Assembly (NCBI GenBank): GCA_017961265.1
Contig: JAGCXN010000045.1
Location: 1 to 48,196 of the forward strand
DNA length: 48,196 nt
From: Bacteroidales bacterium
GTDB taxonomy: Bacteria > Bacteroidota > Bacteroidia > Bacteroidales > WCHB1-69
Direction: 5' to 3'
The position numbers and the translations under genes were made by a program. How positions within the stretch are numbered: position 1 is the first letter of the stretch; each line of letters opens with the position of its first letter. A model generated the notes under the pieces. It saw only the letters and a program-made list of their open reading frames with translations. It was not told the origin of the DNA and ran no database searches. Shown here piece by piece: positions 15,803 through 26,294 of the stretch.

Positions 15803-17425
15803 TTACTCCTTTCTGCTTTCGTAGGTGGTGATTTGGATGCGCCGCTCTTTCGAGGCCGCAATGCTATAGACGGAGTTGCGGGTGTCGTTCACATTGTCGC
15901 TCACTTCCTTCTTCGCCATGGACGCACCCTCCGGCTCCCCAATGATTATGAGGCGGTTACGGGCTTTCCCGTTCAGGTACGGCATCAGTCGCCCGTGGTC
16001 GTACTCCTTGAGGTAATTGACAAAGGAAGCGATGCGCCGGGCCGACAAAGCTACGTTGTAATCCGCTTTGTGCAAAGGACTTGCAAACCCGCAAACCGTG
16101 ATAGAAACCGTATTGCCCGCCTCCAAGTCCGTGACCAACATCGTGGTCAGCTCCTCCAGTTTCCGGAAGCCCTGTTCCACTGAGTCGGTAAAGAACCTTT
16201 CGATTTTCTGGCGGGCGTTGTCAGCTGCCTCGCCGCGTAGCCCCTTGGCATACTCGGCTTTGTACGTCTCCTTCAGGGCAATGTAGTTGGCGAGCGTGGC
16301 GCGGTAGTTCTGTTTCGTGGTTGTGGCTGTGGTGCGCGGGTCAGGCTCGTCGTTGTGGAAATAGAGCGTGATGGGGAGCAACAGTCGCGCCCGCTCGCTC
16401 ACCGGCATGGTATCGCGGCTTACCGTGTCCTCCGTCTCTGTGGTGTCCTGTTCGTAACGCCAGTGGTAACGGAAGAGGTCGGTACAGCAGGTATCCCCGT
16501 CTTCGTCGGGATTCTTGGGACGGTTGGAGGCAAAGTAGCCGTCACCATCGTTCGGGTTAACTGTAAAATAGATGTCGTTGACCGTCGAATTGAGCGGCAC
16601 GCCGATGTTGGACGGGGTGCTCCACTTGCTGAGGGCTCCGTCGGCATAGAAGATGTCGTAACCACCGATGGTGGGGTGTGTGCCGTCGCTGCTGAAATAG
16701 AGCCGCCTGGATTTGGTGTCGTAGAACGGCGTCACCTCATTGTCGGGCGTGTTGATGGCGCTGCCTGCATTGACGGGATCCTCAAAACGGCCATCACGAT
16801 AGATGGAGTACCAGATATCGAGGTCGCCGAAACCGTGCGGTCGGTTGGAGACGAAATACATGACGCTGTAGCTGTCGCCATCCACCCAGTGCGGCTGTGT
16901 GGTGGTGGTGCCCGGCAGGTTGATACGGCGGTTGAGCATCTGCGGCTTCGACCAACGCCCGTTCTTGCCGTCCGATTTCCAAAGGGCGCATTGCAGCTGC
17001 TTGCCTGATTCCCTCTCACATCGCGTGAAGACCATCAGCGTCCGTTCCTTGTTGAAGGTGAAGTTGCAATTGTAGTATTTGTCATCGTTGATGACAGGCA
17101 GCGGCTGTGGTTTTGAATAGCCGCCAATGGTTAGATGACAGCTGTAAATCCTTGTGCTCCAAAACTGTTGGAAAATCTCCCCGTAATCCTCCTCGCTTTC
17201 GGGGCGCAGGGAAGAGAAATAGAAGGTGGAATCAGGCAGCAAAATGCCGTTGTATTCGGAGTAGGAGGTGTTGATTTCTATAGGCAGCAGCGTCACATCC
17301 ACGGGCATCGTGTCGTGCTTCAGAAATTCAATTTGAGCCTTGCGTACTTCGGCCTCCGCGCCGCTTTGGGCAAAGCACGCTAAGGAGGAGAGGAGAACCA
17401 GAAGTACAACAATTATCTTTTTCAT
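15803..17425 (-). CDS. PD40-repeat protein with C-terminal OmpA-like domain (PorE-like)
   Basis: The protein has 540 residues. MKKIIVVLLVLLSSLACFAQ is a signal peptide. The middle has WD40-like/PD40 blades (for example YYNCNFTFNKERTLMVFTR, YFVSNRPHGFGDLDIWYS, YFSSDGTHPTIGGYDIFY, YFASNRPKNPDEDGDTCC). The last third is an OmpA-like peptidoglycan-binding region, with ITVCGFASPLHKADYNVALS and RRIASFVNYL. P. gingivalis PorE and related T9SS proteins combine PD40 and OmpA domains, often beside PorP-like genes, and link outer-membrane complexes to the cell wall. This one lacks an obvious TPR region, so it is PorE-like rather than clearly PorE. The frame opens with TTG codons at 17431 and 17428; ATG 17425 followed by KK is the better start. 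It lies 10 nt after the RarA-PorP fusion and is probably co-transcribed. Confidence 0.82.
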   Translation of the reverse strand: MKKIIVVLLVLLSSLACFAQSGAEAEVRKAQIEFLKHDTMPVDVTLLPIEINTSYSEYNGILLPDSTFYFSSLRPESEEDYGEIFQQFWSTRIYSCHLTIGGYSKPQPLPVINDDKYYNCNFTFNKERTLMVFTRCERESGKQLQCALWKSDGKNGRWSKPQMLNRRINLPGTTTTQPHWVDGDSYSVMYFVSNRPHGFGDLDIWYSIYRDGRFEDPVNAGSAINTPDNEVTPFYDTKSRRLYFSSDGTHPTIGGYDIFYADGALSKWSTPSNIGVPLNSTVNDIYFTVNPNDGDGYFASNRPKNPDEDGDTCCTDLFRYHWRYEQDTTETEDTVSRDTMPVSERARLLLPITLYFHNDEPDPRTTATTTKQNYRATLANYIALKETYKAEYAKGLRGEAADNARQKIERFFTDSVEQGFRKLEELTTMLVTDLEAGNTVSITVCGFASPLHKADYNVALSARRIASFVNYLKEYDHGRLMPYLNGKARNRLIIIGEPEGASMAKKEVSDNVNDTRNSVYSIAASKERRIQITTYESRKE

Positions 17426-17435
17426 CAACAATAAG

Positions 17436-19712
17436 TTACATCACATCAAAAGGACAAGGCTCGCGGCCTGCTCCACGTACTTTCGCCCTTTTGAATATAT
17501 AGTAAAGCGATATTTCAAAGCCGCCGCGTCCGTGGCTGGCCACTGTAAGCGACGAAAAATTGAGGTCGTAACTAAGACCGAGGCGGATATTCTCCCACTC
17601 CAGCGTGCCGCACACGATGAGCGCGTCGTTCCAACGGTAGTATAGTCCTCCGCCCGCCGCGAACCGGTTGCTGTACGGGTTGCGGTAGTGCTCGTACTCG
17701 AAAAGCGACCCGAACAGAATCTCACGGTATTTGTGCTGCACGGCGACGTATGCCACTGGCGACATACAAAAGTTGTCGGTGAGGGCGATGCGGGAAACAA
17801 AATAGCCCGTCACTTTCATGTGCAGGCTACTTTTGGTGTCGAAGAGGGCAATGTTAGGCTGCGTAAGGTGGCTTACGCTCGCGCCGACACTATACCTGCT
17901 CCTTTTGTTCGGTGTCAGCGACCATGCCAGTCCCGCCCCGCAGTCGAACACGGTAAACCGCTCCCGCCCGAATGTTTCGGTAATGGGCAGGTCGGGATTG
18001 TAAATGCCGCCTTGGTACTGCTCGTCGAAAGAGAGGGCGGCATAGTTGAGACTCCGTTGCAAAAAACCGGCATATACACCGAGGCTCAATTTGTTCTTGT
18101 TGCGCCGGTCAAGCGACTTGGTGTAGGCTGCCGACACCGTGCCTTGCAACGTGCTGAACTTCGAGTCGCCGGCGCGGTCGGTGTTGAACTGCACGCCAAG
18201 TCCAATGAGGTGCCGTTTGCCGTTGCTCTTATAGACGGGTGCGTCGAACGAGCCGGAAAAGCTGATATATGGCTTGGTGACGGCGAGCCACTGCGTCTTC
18301 TGGTTCACCCCGACCCGGAAAACGCCGTCAATGGCGCCCGTGTTGGCGGGGTTCAGATAAAGCGGATTATACGCAAATTGCGAATAGTGAATGTCTTGTG
18401 CGAAGGAAGGGAGCAGGCACGACAAGAACACCGCAATTAGCAGGATGTAACGGTACTTCTCTTTCCAGCAGTTGCGGAGGTAGCGGCGCAGCTCGTTCTC
18501 GCGGGCATTGTTCTGCGGCTCGTAGAATTTCTTGCCACTGATTTGCTCGGGTAGGAACTCCTGCGGCACGAAATTGCCCTCATAATCGTGGGCATACAGA
18601 TAGCCCTTGTGGTAGCCGATCTCCTTCATCAGTTCGGTGGGCGCGTTGCGAAGATGCAGCGGCACGGGCAGGTCGCCCGTCTTCTTCACCCACGAAAGGG
18701 CTTCGTCGATAGCGAGATAGGAGGCGTTGCTCTTGGGCGATGATGCCAGATAGACGGCAGTTTGTGAAAGGATGATGCGCGCCTCGGGCATCCCGATCTG
18801 GTGGACGGCCTGAAAGCAGTCGTTGGCCAGCAGCAGGGCGTTCGGATTGGCGTTGCCGATGTCTTCCGAAGCGAGAATGATCATGCGGCGGGCAATGAAG
18901 AGTGGATCCTCACCGGCGGCCAGCATCCGCGCTAACCAATATACCGCAGCGTTGGGGTCGCTGCCCCGCAGCGACTTGATGAAGGCGGAGATGATGTCAT
19001 AATGGTTTTCACCCTTCTTGTCATAAACGGCCAGATTCTTCTGGATGGTTTTCTGAACAATCTCGTTATTGATGACGATGATGCCGTCAACGGGCTGCAA
19101 AGCGTTCACCACCAGCTCAATGGCGTTGATAAGCTTACGGGCGTCGCCGCCGGAAACCCGCAGCAGTGCCTCGTTTTCCTCCACCTTGATGGTAATGGAA
19201 CGTTCCTTTTCAAGATAGCCAATGGCGGTGGCGATAATCTCCTCCAACTCACTGCGTTCCAGATTTTTCAGGATATACACCTGACAACGGGAAAGCAGCG
19301 GCGAGATAACCTCGAAGGAGGGATTTTCGGTGGTCGCGCCAATGAGGGTGACAATGCCTTGTTCCACCGCACCGAGCAACGAATCCTGCTGTGACTTGGA
19401 GAAACGGTGAATTTCGTCAATGAACAGGATGGACTTCCCCTCCTCCTTTTTCGCCTTTTCGATAACATCGCGCACCTCTTTTACGCCAGAGTTGATGGCA
19501 CTGAGCATATAGAAAGGGCTGTTGGTCACTTCGGCGATGAGCAGGGCGAGGGTGGTTTTGCCAACACCGGGCGGTCCCCACAGAATCATAGAGTGTAGAT
19601 TGCCGGTCTCAATGGCATGGCGCAAGGCAGCACCTTCGCCCATCAGGTGCTTCTGCCCAATGTATTTTTCCATGCTTTTGGGCCGTAGTATTTCTGCTAA
19701 TGGTCTTTGCAC
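17436..19712 (-). CDS. RarA AAA+ ATPase fused in frame to a PorP/SprF-family T9SS membrane protein
   Basis: Residues 1 to about 420 are a full replication-associated recombination protein A: Walker A GPPGVGKTT, Walker B ILFIDEIHRF, sensor GATTENPSF, SRC, GGDARKLIN, and the C-terminal tetramerisation part ending GYKGYLYAHDYEGN-like (GYHKGYLYAHDYEGN) and WKEKY. RarA acts on stalled forks in the cytosol. Without a stop the frame continues into a perfect signal peptide (RYILLIAVFLSCLLPSFAQ) and about 320 residues typical of PorP/SprF: DIHYSQFAYNPLYLNPANTG, GLGVQFNTDRAGD, LSLGVYAGFLQRSL, then beta-rich sequence. No ATG, GTG or TTG lies in frame between the two. The longest frame begins with TTG at 19733, but that codon is the end of a TATCTTTG promoter box, so I place the start at GTG 19712, giving 758 aa. 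The PorP half fits the OmpA-like gene that follows. A sequencing or assembly error that removed a stop and a start is possible. Confidence 0.85.
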   Translation of the reverse strand: MQRPLAEILRPKSMEKYIGQKHLMGEGAALRHAIETGNLHSMILWGPPGVGKTTLALLIAEVTNSPFYMLSAINSGVKEVRDVIEKAKKEEGKSILFIDEIHRFSKSQQDSLLGAVEQGIVTLIGATTENPSFEVISPLLSRCQVYILKNLERSELEEIIATAIGYLEKERSITIKVEENEALLRVSGGDARKLINAIELVVNALQPVDGIIVINNEIVQKTIQKNLAVYDKKGENHYDIISAFIKSLRGSDPNAAVYWLARMLAAGEDPLFIARRMIILASEDIGNANPNALLLANDCFQAVHQIGMPEARIILSQTAVYLASSPKSNASYLAIDEALSWVKKTGDLPVPLHLRNAPTELMKEIGYHKGYLYAHDYEGNFVPQEFLPEQISGKKFYEPQNNARENELRRYLRNCWKEKYRYILLIAVFLSCLLPSFAQDIHYSQFAYNPLYLNPANTGAIDGVFRVGVNQKTQWLAVTKPYISFSGSFDAPVYKSNGKRHLIGLGVQFNTDRAGDSKFSTLQGTVSAAYTKSLDRRNKNKLSLGVYAGFLQRSLNYAALSFDEQYQGGIYNPDLPITETFGRERFTVFDCGAGLAWSLTPNKRSRYSVGASVSHLTQPNIALFDTKSSLHMKVTGYFVSRIALTDNFCMSPVAYVAVQHKYREILFGSLFEYEHYRNPYSNRFAAGGGLYYRWNDALIVCGTLEWENIRLGLSYDLNFSSLTVASHGRGGFEISLYYIFKRAKVRGAGREPCPFDVM
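18378..18467 (-). other. Junction of the RarA and PorP parts: internal signal peptide
   Basis: The minus strand codes NCWKEKYRYILLIAVFLSC and then LLPSFAQ in one frame. RarA relatives usually stop just after the WKxKY motif. A tyrosine codon TAC at 18447-18449 would become a stop by one base change. The n-, h- and c-regions of a Sec signal are all present, with likely cleavage after SFA. No in-frame ATG, GTG or TTG sits before the hydrophobic core. Confidence 0.8.
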
Positions 19713-23404: not shown

Positions 23405-26191
23405 TTAACGGATAACCGTGACGGTGCCGGTGTACTCTTTGGGTTCCCCGTCCATATTTTCGGTCTTGATGACATAGACATAGGCGCCGAAGGGTGCCGG
23501 TTTTCCGTTGTCTTGTCCGTTCCAGCCTTGTTCATAGTTGTTGGTCCGAAACACGATCCGGCCTGTGCGTTCAAAAATGATGAACTCATAGATGTCGGTG
23601 TTCATTCCATATCCGTATGGTTTGAAGATGTCGTTCTTTCCGTCACCGTTGGGTGTAAATGAGTTCGGAATGTAGAAATAGTATGGCGTAGGAATACGGA
23701 TGGTGTTGCTCGTCGAGTCGGCACAGCCGGAGCCGGTATTGACAAACATGGAGACCGTATATAGTCCGCTGTTGATGTATTCATGGGAACCGTCAAAATC
23801 AGTGCTCTCCTGTCCGTCACCATAGTTCCAGTGCCATTCGATATTGTCGCCGGCATTGAAACTGGCTATATCGGTGGTGTTGACGAAGTTGTAGGTGCCT
23901 CCTGCCTCAACGCCATAACTTATCACATTGTAGGCAAAGCTGGCGTGAGGCTGCGGATAAACGGTGAGATAGTCCACGCGGGTCATAGAGTCAGTACAGC
24001 CGCCTTGTGTCCGTACGATGAGTCGGACCGTATAATTGCCCCTTACGGTGAGTGTCAGGTATGGATTTCGCTCGGTAGAGGTGAAGACAGCGACATTATC
24101 CTCATTGAAAACGGTCCAGTCATAATACAGGTTGATGTCGGGATGGGTCTGTCCGTCCACAAAGGTACAGAGTGATTGCAGTTGGACGTTCAGCGGGTCG
24201 CAGCCGGCCAGATTGTCCGCCTCAAAGTCGGCATGAGGCATGGGCGAGATATCGACATATACGGTGTCGTTGGCGGCGCATGCCAGCGAACGGTCGGCAT
24301 TGTAGGTGGTGACCGTCAGGTAGTAGTACCCCGTATCTGCTACGTTGATGATAGGACTGGTTTCCCCATTGCTCCAGTTGTAGTCAATAAGGGCAGCAGG
24401 GCCGGAATATTCAAAGTTAGGATTGAGGGTGGCATATTGTGCACCTGTGCAGATGCTAAGGTTTTCTGGCAGGTTCGGGACTGGCATCTGAATCACGTTC
24501 ACAGGTATGGTACGGTGATATTCGCAACCATATTCATCTACGAGGGTAAACTGGTAGTTAAAGTTTCCCGGTCGGACCGAGTTTACATAGCCGGTGGTGT
24601 CGGAGGTGTAGATGATATCTTCGCTGTCCCAGTAGCTGGTGTCAATGGCCACATCGTAGCTCCAGTCTTGCGGCATAAGGCGCGGGTCAAGGGAGAGGTC
24701 CCACTGGAACACATAGCCGTTGTCGGAGCTCCATGTGTCGCAGACGCGGATCTGCCAAAGTCCGTTCAGTGGGCATCCGATGAGGTTGCTGAATGACTGA
24801 TTGGGTGTATAATAGCCTGTATGGTTATATTTGTTTGAGGAGTCCACTGTATTGGAGGGATTGTCAAGAATGTTCACATCCTCATAGCAGATGCCGTCAT
24901 TTTGAGCGTAGGCACTGTTCTCACTCCAACAATAGTTCCAACCGGTACCCTGCGTGTTGTCGGAAGCATTGCAGTAACTGCCATCGGGTTCATAATAGAG
25001 GCCGAAAAAGGCATAATTGTTCACATCGTTGTGATCGGGCATCAGGAGGGCGGAATTACCATTAGGGCATACTAACGAGATGTTGATGTCGCCGATGAAG
25101 GAGTGTTCCATATTGATGCATACGGACAGGATGTCGGCGGCAGAGGTGATGGTGGCACCTGCCGGGAAAACGGTGAAGTTTACGGAGGAGCTGTAGCACT
25201 GTGTGGAACAGTTAGGGCCGTCAGGGATGAATACGGTGGAATCGACGCTGAGGCTTGTCCCCTGCGTGGCTCCGATGTGCGAGACAAGGAAATTGGATAC
25301 ACTGGCATCGTAGCCGATGTTGAACGGAATCGGATCTCCTTGGCATACGTCGGGTAGGGTAGGGATGGAGGTGATGGGGTCGGCGGAGGCACGCACACGG
25401 ATGACGACAGGTGTGTTGGAATGGCAGTTGTGGTTGTCCACAAGATTCAACAGCACTTCTGCGCCCTGTCCATCAGGAAAGTCGAAATCTACGGTGTGCA
25501 GTCCAGCGCCTTGCTGTTGCGTTCCAGCAAGATCCCACTGGAATGTGCAGCTGGCATCACTCTGCTGGTAGCTGTAGTTGTTGTCAGGATATTCGCCGTA
25601 GCATACAAGGTGGGCAACCTGATTCGGGCAAACGTCCAAATAGTAGTACCCGTCGTCCTCAAGATGGGGAACTGGGTTGCTCTGGTTGAAATCGATATGG
25701 GTATAGATGCGCTGGCAGGGTTCTGAGCAGGATACAACAAGCTTGAACCCTGTGCCACAAGTCGAATTCGCAGCGGATACGAAATGCAGAGTGAGTGCTC
25801 CCGTCGTGTTCTGGATGGTGGCGGCAGTCATCTGTTCTCCAATCTGGATGGGATTGCCGTTATTTACCCAATTGGTTGCACGTCCGCCAATCATCAGCGC
25901 CACTGTTTCTGCGGCTTGGTTTTCCCCATTGTAAATGTAGAGGGTGTCGGTTTCGGCAATGTCCATCTCTTCAAACAACAGATTTACAGCACCTGTATTC
26001 GGATAGATGGTAAACCAGTCGTTGCGTCCCGAGCTATAGTCGCCCGTTCCTGCGTGGTCGTATATTATGGCGTTACAGGAATGTGCGTTAGGAGTATTAC
26101 CTCCCACATAATAGCTCGTCTGGGCTTGTGATAGAAATAAAAGTGTAATAAGTGTAAGTGTGAGTGTGGCTCTTTTCAAAATCGTATTCAT
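23405..26191 (-). CDS. T9SS-secreted protein: CUB-like, P-domain, PKD, gliding-motility C-terminal domain
   Basis: The protein has 928 residues. The signal peptide is MNTILKRATLTLTLITLLFLSQAQ; the frame reaches 26281, but the extra 30 residues are lysine-rich and not signal-like, so I use ATG 26191. A CUB-like region (about 25-165) contains LLFEEMDIAETDTLYIYNG. About 330-530 matches a proprotein-convertase P-domain (ADILSVCINMEHSFIGDINI, GLWQIRVCDTWSSDNG). A PKD domain (WHWNYGDGQE) comes before the last about 95 residues, a gliding-motility-associated C-terminal domain (YIPNSFTPNGDGKNDIFKP, FERTGRIVF, GWNGQDNGKPAPFGAYVYVI) that directs T9SS export. No protease catalytic domain is visible despite the P-domain. 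It is probably cell-surface or released; its ligand is unknown. Confidence 0.9.
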   Translation of the reverse strand: MNTILKRATLTLTLITLLFLSQAQTSYYVGGNTPNAHSCNAIIYDHAGTGDYSSGRNDWFTIYPNTGAVNLLFEEMDIAETDTLYIYNGENQAAETVALMIGGRATNWVNNGNPIQIGEQMTAATIQNTTGALTLHFVSAANSTCGTGFKLVVSCSEPCQRIYTHIDFNQSNPVPHLEDDGYYYLDVCPNQVAHLVCYGEYPDNNYSYQQSDASCTFQWDLAGTQQQGAGLHTVDFDFPDGQGAEVLLNLVDNHNCHSNTPVVIRVRASADPITSIPTLPDVCQGDPIPFNIGYDASVSNFLVSHIGATQGTSLSVDSTVFIPDGPNCSTQCYSSSVNFTVFPAGATITSAADILSVCINMEHSFIGDINISLVCPNGNSALLMPDHNDVNNYAFFGLYYEPDGSYCNASDNTQGTGWNYCWSENSAYAQNDGICYEDVNILDNPSNTVDSSNKYNHTGYYTPNQSFSNLIGCPLNGLWQIRVCDTWSSDNGYVFQWDLSLDPRLMPQDWSYDVAIDTSYWDSEDIIYTSDTTGYVNSVRPGNFNYQFTLVDEYGCEYHRTIPVNVIQMPVPNLPENLSICTGAQYATLNPNFEYSGPAALIDYNWSNGETSPIINVADTGYYYLTVTTYNADRSLACAANDTVYVDISPMPHADFEADNLAGCDPLNVQLQSLCTFVDGQTHPDINLYYDWTVFNEDNVAVFTSTERNPYLTLTVRGNYTVRLIVRTQGGCTDSMTRVDYLTVYPQPHASFAYNVISYGVEAGGTYNFVNTTDIASFNAGDNIEWHWNYGDGQESTDFDGSHEYINSGLYTVSMFVNTGSGCADSTSNTIRIPTPYYFYIPNSFTPNGDGKNDIFKPYGYGMNTDIYEFIIFERTGRIVFRTNNYEQGWNGQDNGKPAPFGAYVYVIKTENMDGEPKEYTGTVTVIR

Positions 26192-26294
26192 TTTGTTATA
26201 GAGTTTTACCTTCTTTGATTCAGATTGTTGCCTGCAAGATTTTTTTATGTAAATAATTTCATTAACGAAAAAATCATCCAAAAGTTACAGAGGG

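Follow-up and report, generated by a model that had tools for sequence, protein, structure and literature searches.

In Bradyrhizobium, fbcH encodes a cytochrome b/c1 polyprotein that is cut at an internal signal. Like fbcH, the RarA-PorP gene described here consisted of one open reading frame with an internal signal and presumably two products, and it is a variant of the internal-signal polyprotein; unlike the fbcH products, which share one complex, RarA and PorP belong to unrelated compartments and pathways. RarA/MgsA is a AAA+ ATPase of the replication fork, and its solved structure (3PVS) matched residues 3-410 of the fused protein at 5e-113. All three RarA domains were present, and, unlike in RarA/MgsA, the C terminus did not end the protein: a signal peptide came next, then an outer-membrane protein. 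PorE and type B CTD proteins are binding partners of PorP-like proteins (PMC9143113). The second half of the gene resembled the PorP/SprF family of the type IX secretion system in a family profile score over the cut-off, a signal core ending in A-Q-D, a PorE-like neighbour and CHU_C proteins in the window (the whole stretch of 48,196 nucleotides analysed). Unlike PorP/SprF, the fused PorP had neither a start nor an n-region of its own, its signal being internal and placed after a 422-residue cytosolic enzyme. In Thermus thermophilus dnaX, slippage at a homopolymer in a AAA+ ATPase gene yields a short and a long product (PMC1088944). For the fused gene, which also encodes a AAA+ ATPase, such slippage may be possible in some relatives only; the run in dnaX is A9, whereas T runs were found here and the window copy had none.

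The fused gene was a single open frame at 17436-19712 on the minus strand, with its ATG at 19712, its stop codon at 17436-17438 and a product of 758 aa. The original prediction that one frame held a complete RarA, a signal peptide and a complete PorP/SprF was borne out, with near-full Pfam matches to both families on either side of a signal-peptide core within this one ORF. The RarA/MgsA-type AAA+ ATPase half (residues 1-422; 18447..19712, minus strand) was delimited by Pfam and NCBIfam profiles, an alignment of 20 proteins and the stops of relatives. AAA, AAA_assoc_2 and MgsA_C followed each other in order, over their Pfam cut-offs, within residues 42-415, and the MgsA_C match spanned positions 1-166 of the 167 in its profile. 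The C-terminal end of this half read W416-K-E-K-Y-R-Y422, and unfused relatives had their stop at the same point. GPPGVGKTT, FIDEIHRF, GATTEN and LSR, which we take to be the ATPase motifs of RarA/MgsA, were invariant columns in an alignment of 20 fused proteins and place this half in RarA/MgsA; tetramer, fork and SSB activity are predicted. Tyr422, the last RarA residue, abutted the signal core directly, with no linker residues. The core and its cleavage region (residues 423-438, ILLIAVFLSCLLPSFA; 18399..18446, minus strand) stood immediately before the mature PorP/SprF-family protein (residues 439-758; 17439..18398, minus strand), and the residue pattern predicts a cut before Gln439. PorP_SprF (PF11751, 3.1e-40) matched residues 437-738 over its curated cut-off, covering profile positions 3-273 of 273, and TIGR03519 (1.9e-49) scored 168.7 against a cut-off of 90.55 in the NCBIfam profile search. 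The PorP half is predicted to be an outer-membrane beta-barrel. The window genome, a draft that is 77% complete, contained one strong RarA match, that of the fused gene.

The same in-frame joint was present in 59 of the 86 loci examined (27 were not fused), from 59 genomes that all belonged to one family of uncultured gut Bacteroidales. The full-length frame recurred in a set of 60 genomes and then among 104 genomes of the family, and fused full-length relatives reached down to 59% identity. Matches at E≤1e-100 were obtained in 93 family genomes: 59 were fused (3 of these shortened by contig ends), 24 were unfused as read at sequence level, and in the other 10 the match table showed a match that ran to query 423-438 and contained one stop. 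Of 393 genomes surveyed across the order, representing 207 genera, just 3 had a match at E≤1e-230, a threshold that could miss a fusion carrying a much more divergent PorP; all 3 came from the same family and none from other families. Several titles of near-relative records gave goat, yak or water-buffalo rumen or reticulum, and the named fused records were nearly all metagenome assemblies (the title of L043 did not include 'MAG'). No title about a RarA-PorP fusion gene was found in PMC among the matches listed. The fused gene is real, unusual and conserved, as confirmed through its relatives. A base error or misassembly that removed a stop, one of the options first put forward and one that the draft state of the window genome would allow, is ruled out because the same joint recurs in 59 genomes, leaving it virtually no chance of being correct. 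Nor did relatives all have two separate genes, the outcome named beforehand as telling against a fusion, since comparison of their rarA and porP loci gave the 59 fused cases above.

Conservation was shown both for the joint and for the residue pattern of the cleavage site. K-Y-x-Y ended the RarA half in 59/59 fused loci, the 12 residues after Tyr had a GRAVY of 2.28-3.38, the net charge of the signal core was 0 in 48 loci and +1 in 11, and the distance from the start of the core to the invariant Gln was 16, 17 or 19 residues. Position +1 was Q in 59/59 loci, position -1 was A (45), G (10), S (3) or T (1) and thus A/G/S in 58/59, and position -3 was S, A, T, C, G or V in 51. The kept residues at -1 and +1 argue for cutting of a polyprotein by signal peptidase, against which stand the L or I at position -3 in the other 8 loci and the single T at -1. 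The last ten RarA residues carried a net charge of +2 to +4 in fused loci and +1 to +4 in 26 unfused ones. The basic RarA tail replaces the lost n-region and is itself unchanged for that role; because unfused tails are about equally basic, a point that weighs against the polyprotein reading, it is at most a pre-adaptation.

Adjoining the fused gene in the window was a gene for a PorE-like PD40 protein with its own ATG and leader (15803..17425, minus strand), which matched PD40 and NF052230 (5.3e-37; 127 of 600 bits, far under the cut-off) and had, by eye, an OmpA-like C terminus. Of 74 fused rows, which count some genomes twice and include loci that end early, 58 had such a gene next to the fused one; this adjacency was not found in the remaining 16, which counts against the polyprotein reading. 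The next gene after it encoded a DUF3256 protein (PF11644; 15149..15799, minus strand). Outgroup loci L171-L179 had the PorP/PorE-like pair, and rarA was absent from the fetched stretch. Upstream of the fused gene and on the same strand were genes for a CHU_C (type B) type IX secretion signal protein (PF13585; 23405..26281, minus strand) and a second CHU_C protein of 1581 aa (PF13585; 27143..31888, minus strand), with a DUF4292 gene between them. The window genome encoded SprA_N and 14 CHU_C matches over cut-off, including the two in the window. Its other PorP, on contig C11, was 33% identical to the fused one, and the neighbour of this paralogue matched TIGR03524 at 436.6 of 458.2 bits and GldK at 217 of 350, with GldJ first and both below cut-off. 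No GldJ/GldK-like lipoprotein gene, the mark of a core PorP, was found beside the fused PorP among the window genes. It is thus the PorP/SprF copy with a PorE-like neighbour that is fused to RarA, rather than the one beside the GldJ/GldK-like gene. Given the binding partners of PorP-like proteins (PMC9143113), the substrates of the PorP half are probably CHU_C proteins, that at 23405..26281 being a plausible client.

Both halves were under purifying selection: in 13 close pairs dN/dS was 0.004-0.056 for RarA and 0.008-0.064 for PorP, and because these values are low neither half is decaying. A RarA tree of 84 of the 86 rows (L116 and L133 were left out, their RarA part being <300 aa) contained a clade of 74 (support 100/99) made up of all 58 fused rows and 16 nested unfused rows; the fused/unfused label needed 8 changes on this tree, and the starred branches forced at least 7. 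In the PorP tree, which left out L124 (<180 aa) and paralogues scoring ≤200 bits, split PorPs stood beside the same fused sisters as in the RarA tree: L120 and L122 grouped with L170, L123 and L125 with L134, and L026, L115, L116 and L119 fell in the L155 group. The base of the fused clade was weakly supported there (93/24), a further point against the polyprotein reading. We read the trees as one fusion at the base of the clade, which would have been followed by about six losses of the joint, about five keeping a separate PorP and one (g10) not. Five g10 genomes, whose placement had moderate support (96/76), kept rarA, and the PorP relatives in them were all distant, with best E values of 1e-13 to 2e-17. 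In intact split loci 103 nt to 2.8 kb separated the stop of RarA from mature PorP; in the L121 genome PorP was on the same contig, ~6 kb off, and in the L117 genome on another contig. Split PorPs carried their own leaders again. Split RarAs likewise all ended at the same Tyr, a point that needs explanation under the one-fusion view too. TGA ended 10 of 11 split RarAs of genus g8 (L118 left out), and the loss of one G from GTG-ATG at the joint would conceivably create a TGA overlapping the ATG. Allele exchange behind the splits is not favoured, given that split genes have the same fused sisters in both trees, and repeated independent fusions, which would need an identical joint each time, are not favoured either. 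In L115 and L116, RarA and PorP lay in the same frame with a single TGA between them, ~50 codons before mature PorP, making these loci candidates for recent splits or readthrough. Because the joint was lost repeatedly, the two products are apparently not in need of each other. The earlier suggestion of a functional tie between fork repair and type IX secretion is not supported, since about five lineages re-split the gene with PorP kept and the five g10 genomes have rarA without a close copy of fused-type porP.

We consider it probable that the gene, a genuine clade-wide fusion, acts as a two-compartment polyprotein, cut by signal peptidase I at the internal signal. A precursor cut by signal peptidase was among the options first proposed and is the best supported of them through the conserved joint and cleavage residues; single-chain translation, cutting, tethering and client identity we infer from the sequences compared. 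The fusion event would have placed the hydrophobic core of the signal peptide of porP straight after the final rarA codon, at the cost of the rarA stop and of the porP start and charged n-region. RarA would be synthesised first, in one chain with PorP, and its basic tail (net +2 to +4) and the core would together make up an internal signal that Sec would insert N-in/C-out, keeping RarA inside. Signal peptidase I would cleave after A/G/S and before Gln (Gln439 in the window). PorP and its PorE-like partner would then move on to the outer membrane, where PorP probably anchors type B (CHU_C) substrates, and RarA would be left with a hydrophobic tail of 16-19 residues which, if it is not trimmed off, may hold the enzyme at the inner membrane. 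An uncut fusion, working as one bifunctional protein that spans compartments, would fit the finding of two complete domains in one open frame; it is very improbable given the conserved cleavage-site pattern, the unfused genes nested among fused ones, which suggest a dispensable link, and the carriage of RarA to the outer membrane that it would need.

Alternatively, PorP might be translated separately from an internal start, at a lineage-specific codon at the joint or at ATG 362, and a polyprotein would then be unnecessary. The original prediction had no start codon between the halves, which held for codons 423-427 (ATC CTG CTA ATT GCG) and failed further on, where the window copy had GTG (codon 428) and TTG (codon 430) inside the signal core. 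GTG 428 also lay just where the start zone ends; this zone ran from 8 codons before the Tyr end of RarA to 10 residues before the cut. GTG was the first codon after Tyr in 20/59 fused loci and ATG the second in 16/59, these 16 all being of genus g8. ATG 362 was nearly invariant among the 20 aligned fused proteins and the closest ATG in many loci, and could in principle start a PorP with a long leader. All of these points favour internal initiation and speak against a polyprotein. Against internal initiation, the start zone held no ATG, GTG or TTG in 16/59 fused loci (and no ATG in 39/59), and the single open frame had no start codon near the joint that was common to all 59. ATG 362 also lies inside a conserved RarA stretch, and codon identity at conserved residues was average, with z of -0.2 to 0.9 for windows of codons starting at 358-440. 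A start within the core would leave no charged n-region, whereas split PorPs carry a longer leader. We regard a separate internal start as rather unlikely. Initiation on a shared non-standard codon, another of the early options, is disfavoured by the lack of a codon common to all and of synonymous constraint. A hidden RNA element at the joint was rejected, synonymous constraint being absent.

Poly-T tracts offer a different way to obtain RarA without full PorP: in relatives with tracts, slippage by polymerase or ribosome, or during replication as phase variation, could set the ratio of the products. Runs of T≥8 numbered 47 in the signal and PorP half of 37/56 fused loci, against 14.45 expected under synonymous shuffling, and 0 against 0.08 in the RarA half; the loci are related, and the counts are not independent. 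Codon and T-run tests covered 56 of the 59 fused loci (L025, L133 and L166, <700 aa, were left out). The same shuffling test found no excess of A runs in fused loci, and the PorE-like control gene was poor in T runs, with 2 against 5.39 expected in 48 loci. The shuffling test was preferred to a comparison of Phe codons, in which loci were selected by T run and the enrichment arises partly by construction. T10 was located 26 nt beyond the Tyr codon in 17/56 fused loci, plus L133, and T9 at PorP aa149 in 11 fused loci. The loci with T9-T10 at 26 nt past the Tyr codon were L022, L133, L147-L149, L151, L152, L155-L157, L159-L163, L165, L168 and L169. These recurrent T9-T10 runs are candidate phase-variation or slippage sites. 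In favour of slippage, slips at the signal tract mostly reach a stop within a few codons, and L118 (G068) had T11 for T10, with PorP frameshifted and RarA intact, a one-base change that could reflect either an off state or a mistake in assembly. Against it, 19/56 fused loci in all, the window copy included, had no T≥8 run, the rows are related, Phe-rich stretches explain part of the runs, and the outgroup PorP L179, the one row with such a T run among 22 other PorP rows, also had a T9 near the same place. We hold slippage of this kind to be unlikely. None of 12 split PorPs examined with intact frame had a T≥8 run (L026, L115, L116, L119, L120, L122-L125, L110, L183 and L184, with L122 and L124 partial), and T10 runs were not rare genome-wide, nine g8 genomes having between 8 and 26 apiece. 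A broader scenario, possible though doubtful, would be that the sole RarA of the clade is tethered to the membrane by its signal-peptide tail, that in many species slippage or phase variation at T9-T10 turns PorP off and leaves RarA on, and that tension between the products drives the splits.

A polyprotein cut as we propose would be a natural one composed of a cytosolic DNA-repair ATPase and an outer-membrane protein, found in dozens of species and several times lost. It makes directly testable whether bacteria export and cut an internal signal that follows a large, folded AAA+ domain, and whether a membrane-tethered RarA functions. Fused genes of this type are easily 'corrected' as errors during annotation. 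In L045 and L134 (G072), an in-frame TAA occurred near RarA codon 15 of a gene that was otherwise fused. At L105 2039-4930, an N-truncated RarA was in frame after a stretch containing N-glycanase_C, possibly a misassembly or another fusion.
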